Of a stretch of DNA of 32,166 bases, positions 26,660 through 29,646 are shown one piece after another; the stretch's first letter is position 1; each line of letters opens with the position of its first letter. The stretch comes from Gemmataceae bacterium (GTDB taxonomy: Bacteria > Planctomycetota > Planctomycetia > Gemmatales > Gemmataceae): positions 1-32,166 of the forward strand of contig JAIEQO010000847.1 of NCBI GenBank assembly GCA_019747655.1, in the 5' to 3' direction. Under the pieces are notes generated by a model. The model was given only the letters and a program-made list of their open reading frames with translations, did no database searches and had not been told where the DNA came from. Both the position numbers and the translations under genes were made by a program.

Positions 26660-26769
26660 CCCGGGGCTGTCGCCCCGGGCTCTGTTGTCGCGGCCCTTCG
26701 GACCTGAAGAGCCGGGTCGCTTGAGGGCCGAAGGCCCGACACAGCATAGCCCGGGGCGACAGCCCCGGG
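26660..26769. repeat. Paired REP-like inverted repeats, 22-bp perfect arms
   Basis: cccggggctgtcgccccgggct (26660-26681) is the reverse complement of agcccggggcgacagccccggg (26748-26769). Confidence 0.9.
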
Positions 26770-27424: not shown

Positions 27425-27523
27425 CGGAAAAAGAATTTCGACAGGATAACAGGATGAAACAGGATCAATATCAACATCCTGTATTTTATATCTTGTTTGT
27501 CTTGTTACCCTGTCAAGAATCCG
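27425..27523. repeat. AT-rich imperfect inverted-repeat element (GACAGGATAACAGGATG...CATCCTGT...GTTACCCTGTC)
   Basis: Marked local drop in GC; arms gacaggataac and gttaccctgtc, inner acaggat / atcctgt. Confidence 0.7.
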
Positions 27524-27530
27524 CTTGTTT

Positions 27531-28527: not shown

Positions 28528-28731
28528 GAGAGCGGGTTCAGCCGGGTGGGGACGTTCGGCACTTGGTCCGACCCGGGCGATTTTCCGCCCGGCCGGGCGC
28601 GAACCCGGGTAAAATGTCGGTGTCCGAACAGGATGTCGTGCGTCCGTGGCACGACGGGCTCAAGGCCTCCGGTGGTTCGCACTGGTACGCGGGTCGCCGC
28701 TGGCGTCACCCGAAGTAAAGGAGGTGATCCT

Positions 28732-28776
28732 GTGAGTAGTAGTTGTTACCAGGGTTTGAAGGGCCGGCTGGCCTAA
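28732..28776 (+). CDS. Micro-ORF, 14 codons: (M)SSSCYQGLKGRLA (GTG start)
   Basis: AAAGGAGGTGATCCT-GTGAGTAGTAGTTGTTACCAGGGTTTGAAGGGCCGGCTGGCCTAA; GGAGG is 7 nt from the GTG. Confidence 0.45.
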   Translation: MSSSCYQGLKGRLA

Positions 28777-28818
28777 CGGCCGCATCACGGGTGGACCGTT
28801 AAGCCGGCCTACCCACCG

Positions 28819-28855
28819 GACCCCCGGGGCCTCAAGCCCCGGGGGTCTGTTTTTT
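28819..28855 (+). terminator. Rho-independent terminator
   Basis: gacccccggggc-ctcaa-gccccgggggtc (12-bp perfect stem) followed by tgttttttc. Confidence 0.88.
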
Positions 28856-28868
28856 CGGGAAGCGAGCG

Positions 28869-28976
28869 CACGCGGATGACGCGGATTGGAGGACGCGGCG
28901 AACACGCGGATCGGTCCAACCGCTGATTCCGGTCTGATCCGCGTGGGTCCGCGCTCTTCTCCACGTCATCCGCGTG
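28869..28976. repeat. Inverted repeat element, arms cacgcggatgacg / cgtcatccgcgtg, with internal cgcggat repeats
   Basis: Arms 28869-28881 and 28964-28976; the right arm overlaps the EVE stop codon. Confidence 0.75.
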
Positions 28977-29373
28977 CCATGTCTTCGATTCTCCCCCACA
29001 ACTCCGCCGGGACCGGCATCACCGACAGCCGGGGCAGGCGGACCAGCTCCCAGTCGGCGAACGCCCCGTCGGCCTTGATCGCGGCCAGCGTCACCGGCCT
29101 TCCAAGCGGCTTCACCGGCTTGACCGTCACCACCACCCGCTTCCCGGCCGGGTCGCCGGGGTCCGGGGTCGGGCCGGCCGTCACCTCCATCACCCCCACC
29201 ACGGCCTTTTCACCGCCGGTGTGGTAGAGGAAGGCCCGGTCGCCAGGCTTGGCCGCCCGCAGGTGCTTCTGGGCGACCGGGTTGGCGACGCCGTCCCAGA
29301 CGGTCGAGCCGTCCCGGGCGAGGTCGGCGAACGAGTAGCAGTCCGGCTCGGTCTTGAACAGCCAGTTGGCCAT
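28966..29373 (-). CDS. EVE domain-containing protein
   Basis: MANWLFKTEPDCYSFADLARDGSTVWDGVANPVAQKHLRAAKPGDRAFLYHTGGEKAVVGVMEV... Confidence 0.93.
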   Translation of the reverse strand: MANWLFKTEPDCYSFADLARDGSTVWDGVANPVAQKHLRAAKPGDRAFLYHTGGEKAVVGVMEVTAGPTPDPGDPAGKRVVVTVKPVKPLGRPVTLAAIKADGAFADWELVRLPRLSVMPVPAELWGRIEDMARG

Positions 29374-29396: not shown

Positions 29397-29453
29397 GAGG
29401 CCCGACCGTGAGGGAGGGCTCCTTCGGGAAGCCCTCCCTCACGGTCGGGCCTC
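29397..29453. repeat. REP-like palindrome, 24-bp perfect inverted repeat with ccttcggga loop
   Basis: gaggcccgaccgtgagggagggct / agccctccctcacggtcgggcctc, immediately upstream of the EVE gene start. Confidence 0.9.
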
Positions 29454-29646
29454 GGACGGTCGGGTTGTACCGGATCGGGTATCCCGCCCGCAACCGACGT
29501 TGCGGCAGGGTAGGGGGGCCGGGCAGAATCCGGCCGTTTTGTGAAGGTCGTCGGTGCGGCCGGCCGATGTACGCCCGGCGGTAGCGGTGGCAGGCTGATC
29601 CTGCCACGATGGTGGTGTCGCCCGCCACCCGCCGGAGGTGTCGGCC

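Follow-up and report, generated by a model that had tools for sequence, protein, structure and literature searches.

The window, a stretch of 32,166 nt from a Gemmataceae bacterium (contig JAIEQO010000847.1), carries a locus that is best read as a stand-alone gene for a structured RNA of about 220 nt, conserved through Planctomycetota. From 5' to 3', the RNA comprises the hairpins P1 and P2, an extended Shine-Dalgarno (SD) sequence, a micro-ORF, a third hairpin, P3, with the stop codon inside it and a terminator, which was read directly for the window. As far as the comparison of relatives can tell, the gene is real and old, its structure is well supported and its translatable track is under selection. 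It is absent from Rfam, a search at the locus having returned no family at the gathering threshold. Planctomycetota seem to have few described regulatory RNAs, and a literature search for an sRNA of this type in the phylum found no report. A literature search for anti-SD-complementary sRNAs or decoys also found none. An RNA that is phylum-wide, mostly single-copy and built around the mRNA-docking sequence of the ribosome is likely to have a basic role.

The SD sequence AAAGGAGGUGAUCC (28717 to 28730, + strand; AAAGGAGGTGATCC in the DNA) is an exact complement, over 14 nt, of the 16S rRNA 3' end of its own genome. The initial annotation had claimed such a perfect complement, and the tail from the same genome bears it out. 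A scan of the whole 7.33-Mb assembly for AAAGGAGGTGATCC yielded two exact copies, the one at 28717 to 28730 and one formed by the 16S gene's own 3' terminus, read as its complement on the opposite strand; the 16S gene was identified via Rfam SSU_rRNA, and a control pattern gave 0 matches. Since the sequence occurs in these two places only, the complementarity to the own 16S tail is exact and unique outside rRNA. The SD is followed by the micro-ORF VSSSCYQGLKGRLA (28732 to 28776, +), which has the GTG start and the 14 codons previously ascribed to it and ends with TAA at 28774 to 28776. The MFE fold of 28715 to 28856 has an energy of -75.5 kcal/mol compared with -56.4 (sd 4.4) for shuffled sequences (z = -4.3), and no shuffle was equally stable. 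It contains both the stop-codon hairpin and the intrinsic terminator (28818 to 28855, +; a GC stem followed by TGTTTTTT), two elements that had already been recognized in the initial annotation. The RNA is longer than the part described there: the 5' hairpins P1 and P2 and the pseudoknot described below had been missed. A pairing proposed between a loop sequence AUCAC and GUGAU in the SD did not withstand comparison: AUCAC is replaced by AUAAC, GCAAC or GUAAC in four of five same-genus relatives. A coding-looking ORF of 34 codons at 28613 to 28718 was rejected; it overlaps P1 and P2 and is absent in relatives.

By DNA search, the locus was found in all five genomes of the same genus, with hints in other genera that display the parts in the same order. 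Within the class, a covariance model built from the 3' half of the RNA matched 299 of 398 genomes, which represent 148 of 186 genera and mostly have one copy each; of 297 genomes sampled from the phylum, it matched 83. Twenty loci were fetched from outside the class, at least one of which (L275) may be a chance match; 19 of them show SD, short ORF and then a GC-rich hairpin region in the same order. Hence, SD, ORF and hairpin, whose joint conservation had been suggested as a test of the locus, are kept together through the class and in the sampled other classes. Of 100 relatives, 91 match the 16S-tail complement exactly over a run of at least 10 nt. The SD core AAAGGAGGUG hardly varies; the sequence that extends it does (AUCG, GUCC, UUCC).

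Support for the helices comes from covariation. Sixteen pairs were scored on 63 sequences: 94.9% of the alignment cells are paired, compared with 86.3% in shuffled and 25-46% in slid controls, and changes on both sides occur in 107 cells, compared with 30 in shuffled and 3-33 in slid controls. On each of the measures, none of 500 shuffles reached the observed value, and these values are far above the slid controls; as the relatives are non-independent samples, the shuffle figures are not to be taken as probabilities. P1 (28635 to 28655, +; GUCGUGC-GUCCGUG-GCACGAC) is a 7-bp hairpin that lies 57-70 nt before the SD in most relatives and exposes a conserved CGUG or CGCA motif in its loop. All seven pairs have changed on both sides, and 97.0% of the cells are paired (63 sequences). 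Of 100 relatives, 75 have a P1-type hairpin of at least 7 bp at a distance of 50-100 nt upstream of their SD, vs. 1% of shuffled sequences. Since P1 lies outside the search model, its presence upstream of the matches provides independent support. P2 (28665 to 28704, +; apical loop ACUGGUAC at 28681 to 28688) is a long hairpin in folds of relatives, and its pairing is conserved in form; its pairs were left out of the per-pair count because the MAFFT alignment of P2 was too loose. P3 (28762 to 28809, +) begins with the last ORF codons. Its outer stem GGCCGGCU/AGCCGGCC encloses the stop codon and an inner hairpin with a conserved (G)ACGG motif. In the 63 sequences, 92.3% of the cells in the outer and 95.2% in the inner stem are paired. 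Covariation in this stop-containing hairpin, which the initial annotation had put forward as a check, is seen in six of nine pairs as paired changes on both sides. Furthermore, P3 can form two mutually exclusive inner hairpins of at least 5 bp each, both of which are possible in 42 of 100 relatives; each alone occurs in shuffled sequences at a rate of 0.6% and 5%, respectively. ACG-type loops are presented by both P1 and P3. Among the loci L264 to L283 of other classes, several have, as read by eye, a P1 of 8 bp whose tetraloop is exactly GACG, a motif that P3 carries as well.

The P2 loop and the micro-ORF are predicted to form a pseudoknot. In the window, the loop sequence ACUGGUA is able to pair with UUACCAG in the ORF, CUGGUA (28682 to 28687, +) providing the 5' side and UACCAG (28747 to 28752, +) the 3' side; the pseudoknot follows the start codon at a distance of 15 nt. 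Averaged over 76 relatives, each loop pairs with its own ORF at a duplex energy of -7.88 kcal/mol, compared with -6.75 kcal/mol (sd 0.21) for permuted partners, and none of 5000 permutations was as low. A cruder repetition with wider windows gave 6 of 10000, which is weaker and points in the same direction. Compensatory variants include GAUUGCC/GGCAAUC (L243), UUGGUC/GACCAA (L064), GGGUC/GACCC (L217), GGCUA/UAGCC (L054), ACGGC/GCCGU (L055) and GCUACAA/UUGUAGC (L202). In family f3, the pseudoknot is limited to the 4 bp CUGG/CCAG. The SD lies on the segment that connects P2 to the pseudoknot and is, therefore, probably displayed for 30S binding. Some translational riboswitches also have their SD within a pseudoknot connector. 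This arrangement and the ACG-type loops on P1 and P3 would suit an RNA that senses a ligand or protein and lets its pseudoknot govern whether the SD is accessible; here, the micro-ORF would be a readout only insofar as it occupies or frees the RNA. Such a sensor is, however, decidedly improbable, as there is no gene controlled in cis, no large invariant pocket is evident and the sequences of the pairing loop vary freely provided that pairing stays.

The micro-ORF itself was analyzed in 100 distinct relatives. It starts with GTG in 84, TTG in 9 and ATG in 7 of them; the spacing between the GGAGG core and the start codon is 6-8 nt in 99, and the length is 10-15 codons in 99 of the 100. Extraction of the relatives demanded an ORF of 7-22 codons so that its openness is not evidence in itself; L225 and L226 yielded no ORF, the former because its SD is GGAGGCAAUC. 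Measured from the start codon, a fixed point in P3 lies at a distance of 22, 25, 28, 31 or 34 in one clade and of 27, 30, 33 or 36 in the other. This means, within a clade it varies by multiples of three only, which applies to 60 of 63 sequences; in the three that deviate, a stop codon is nonetheless found inside P3. The stop codon is always located 7-11 nt past the GG of P3. Purifying selection on amino acids was sought by counting substitutions at codon positions 1, 2 and 3, which number 475, 581 and 549 in the 5' half of the ORF and 635, 475 and 456 in the P3 half; there is no third-position excess, although these counts mix RNA and coding constraints and weak peptide selection could stay hidden in them. 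Since frame and stop are kept and a third-position excess is absent, the RNA preserves a translatable track and a stopping place, and not evidently a peptide. Translation itself appears to matter rather than the peptide. A frame that is kept while its peptide apparently is not is also relevant for small-protein annotation.

These data bear on the abundant micropeptide that the initial annotation had offered as one option. The product of such a gene would be a peptide of 10-15 residues, M..(N/S)QR(G/R)(L/G)xA, and start, frame and stop are indeed conserved and the C-terminal residues Q-R/G-R-L-A recur. However, the codon positions carry no signature of amino-acid selection. Moreover, the conserved residues coincide with the pairing of pseudoknot and P3, and length and N-terminal residues vary freely. 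A micropeptide gene is, thus, very unlikely. The codons before the pseudoknot are strongly biased to NNU (AGU, UGU, GGU, UAU, GAU), with U at 280 of 490 third positions. These NNU-rich codons of the class occur in mostly GC-rich genomes.

A -10-like box, TAAAAT (28610 to 28615, +), is the putative promoter element of the RNA's own gene. Upstream of the P1 loop centre, boxes that resemble TATAAT (5/6 or better) are clustered at 25-35 nt and boxes that resemble TTGACA at 46-56 nt across relatives. Bounded by these promoter-like boxes and the terminator, the predicted transcription unit is stand-alone. In the window, the locus is flanked by a divergent gene upstream and a convergent one downstream, the latter encoding an EVE-domain protein (Pfam PF01878). 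The next plus-strand gene, which had already been described as distant, is dcd at 29638 beyond the EVE-domain gene. Across 21 planctomycete loci, no neighbour gene family was common to more than four, and the sharers were all close relatives. A combination of SD, short ORF, two mutually exclusive hairpins and terminator resembles an attenuator, and an amino-acid or ribosome-status leader peptide controlling a downstream gene might be built in this way. This reading is largely refuted and keeps only the slimmest of chances: the unit has its own boundaries, neither a neighbour nor a co-directional downstream gene is conserved, and the gene that follows in the window is convergent. The sequence evidence supports instead the autonomous short transcript with extreme SD, short ORF and own terminator that had been postulated initially.

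We propose that this RNA is a ribosome-gated switch, i.e. an autonomous RNA that ribosomes unfold by loading on its extreme SD; whether this proposal is correct is about an even call. 30S subunits with a free 16S tail would load on the SD, and the initiating and elongating ribosome would open the pseudoknot. Termination at the stop codon inside P3 would open P3, and the two mutually exclusive inner hairpins of P3 might allow later refolding. In this way, the RNA would alternate between a folded state, in which P1, the P2-pseudoknot and P3 are displayed, and a translated state, and this alternation could report the availability of ribosomes or 30S subunits. Its output might run through base pairing in trans or through a protein recognizing the conserved ACG loops on P1 and P3. 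Where P1 and P3 share the GACG motif, as in several loci of other classes, the two hairpins may have one protein as common reader. The RNA provides a defined object for asking whether bacteria gauge ribosome availability directly by RNA.

The extreme SD could also be explained by a 30S decoy or hibernation RNA that holds 30S subunits or stalled initiation complexes and lowers the number of free ribosomes under some condition; here, the short ORF would merely clear the RNA. The 16S-tail complement, exact and unique in the genome, and the nearly invariant SD core are compatible with a decoy. Furthermore, initiation complexes on extended SDs are unusually stable in F. johnsoniae (PMC9976891), and an extended SD helix is visible by cryo-EM in S. 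aureus (PMC13009471). However, a decoy would need neither a frame-conserved ORF with a fixed stop nor a covarying ORF pseudoknot and P3, and the SD extension beyond the core is variable. Hence, a decoy is rather unlikely. The planctomycete RNA has counterparts in layout among known RNAs.

One of them is CC2171, a Caulobacter sRNA (Rfam RF01867). Its consensus opens with GAAAGGAGGUGAUCCAGUG, followed by an open micro-ORF, hairpins and a terminator. Sub-threshold CC2171 matches sit on SD and ORF of several planctomycete loci, with at best 25.5 bits and 19.7 bits in the window (cut-off 75). The layout is common from the SD on, whereas ORF and hairpins differ. Since the CC2171 model begins just before the SD, it has no P1-P2 domain, in contrast to the planctomycete RNA. 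In GTDB genomes, the exact 19-mer GAAAGGAGGTGATCCAGTG was found mostly in alphaproteobacterial micro-ORF RNAs of CC2171-like layout, which encode the peptides MSHCHQP..., MSRVILERGVGT... and MSYTKRCHLAGIAR, and elsewhere in two Phycisphaerales, one Nitrosomonadales and one 'Deltaproteobacteria'. Among 143 evenly drawn alphaproteobacterial genomes, 14 contain AAAGGAGGTGATCCNGTG, one copy each except for the query (control: 0). In a set comprising L082 and 20-odd Rhodobacterales loci, the alphaproteobacterial super-SD micro-ORF RNA is, in most of the Rhodobacterales, flanked by genes for a Vut_1 transporter and an RF-1-domain protein, the latter of the ArfB/YaeJ-like ribosome rescue type.

Similarly, the actinobacterial sRNA Ms_IGR-5 (Rfam RF02471) has an extended SD, a short ORF and a GAGGUGGCUGCC hairpin. 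Its model reached 20.8 bits in one planctomycete locus (L011; cut-off 45) and did not match at the window locus, and a deltaproteobacterial relative with a clear super-SD micro-ORF (L142), the one that contains the 19-mer, scored 41.3 bits. Neither P1 and P2 nor the pseudoknot were seen in the Ms_IGR-5 consensus, and the reading frame over the hairpin differs. Membership in CC2171 or Ms_IGR-5 was rejected, as planctomycete loci remain far below both gathering cut-offs. tmRNA, which combines a tRNA-like domain with a tag reading frame devoid of an SD, was also rejected: ARAGORN found none in the window, there was no Rfam tmRNA match, and the ORF has a full SD. In dual-function sRNAs like SgrS/SgrT and RNAIII/hld, a structured RNA contains a translated small ORF, the function of the peptide is known and the SD is ordinary. 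At the sequence level, the planctomycete RNA likewise keeps both its fold and an open frame within a single conserved unit, but its peptide is apparently unselected and its SD extreme.

In mycobacteria, Ms_IGR-5 homologues bear ribosome footprints (PMC4974804); in Caulobacter, two ncRNAs known from earlier predictions, unnamed in the main text, were found to be translated (PMC4117421). Ribosome sensing by an SD is known from the bS21 autoregulation in Bacteroidota/Flavobacteriales, where rpsU has an extended SD that occurs about once per genome and senses ribosomes with an exposed 16S tail (PMC9976891). The likeness lies in one exceptionally strong SD per genome; the ORF there is a ribosomal protein gene, whereas here it is a 10-15-codon frame in a structured RNA. 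It is tentatively suggested, with the chances against it, that the planctomycete RNA, the CC2171-like RNAs, Ms_IGR-5 and the delta- and betaproteobacterial examples form one functional class, which would directly sense free 30S subunits or ribosomes whose 16S tail is exposed. Members of this possible class would be stand-alone, usually one per genome, and combine an exceptionally strong SD with a frame of 10-25 codons running through a refoldable structure. The comparison suggests one shared design for sRNAs scattered over other phyla without an assigned function, such as CC2171 and Ms_IGR-5.

The surroundings of the locus contain further structured sequences. Directly 3' of the terminator, an imperfect inverted pair is located around cacgcggatgacgcggat / atccgcgtgggtccgcg...cgtcatccgcgtg (28866 to 28978). 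Between the EVE-domain gene and dcd, a near-perfect long palindrome, gcccgaccgtgagggagggct-ccttcggga-agccctccctcacggtcgggc, spans 29400 to 29452. Upstream, an AT-rich block amid a GC-rich region (27436 to 27530) looks like an inverted repeat (gacaggataacaggat ... atcctgt ... gttaccctgtc). Two matches to the Acido-Lenti-1 RNA (RF01687) are inverted relative to each other at 26660 to 26705 (+) and 26724 to 26769 (-), with 41.3 and 53.3 bits, respectively.
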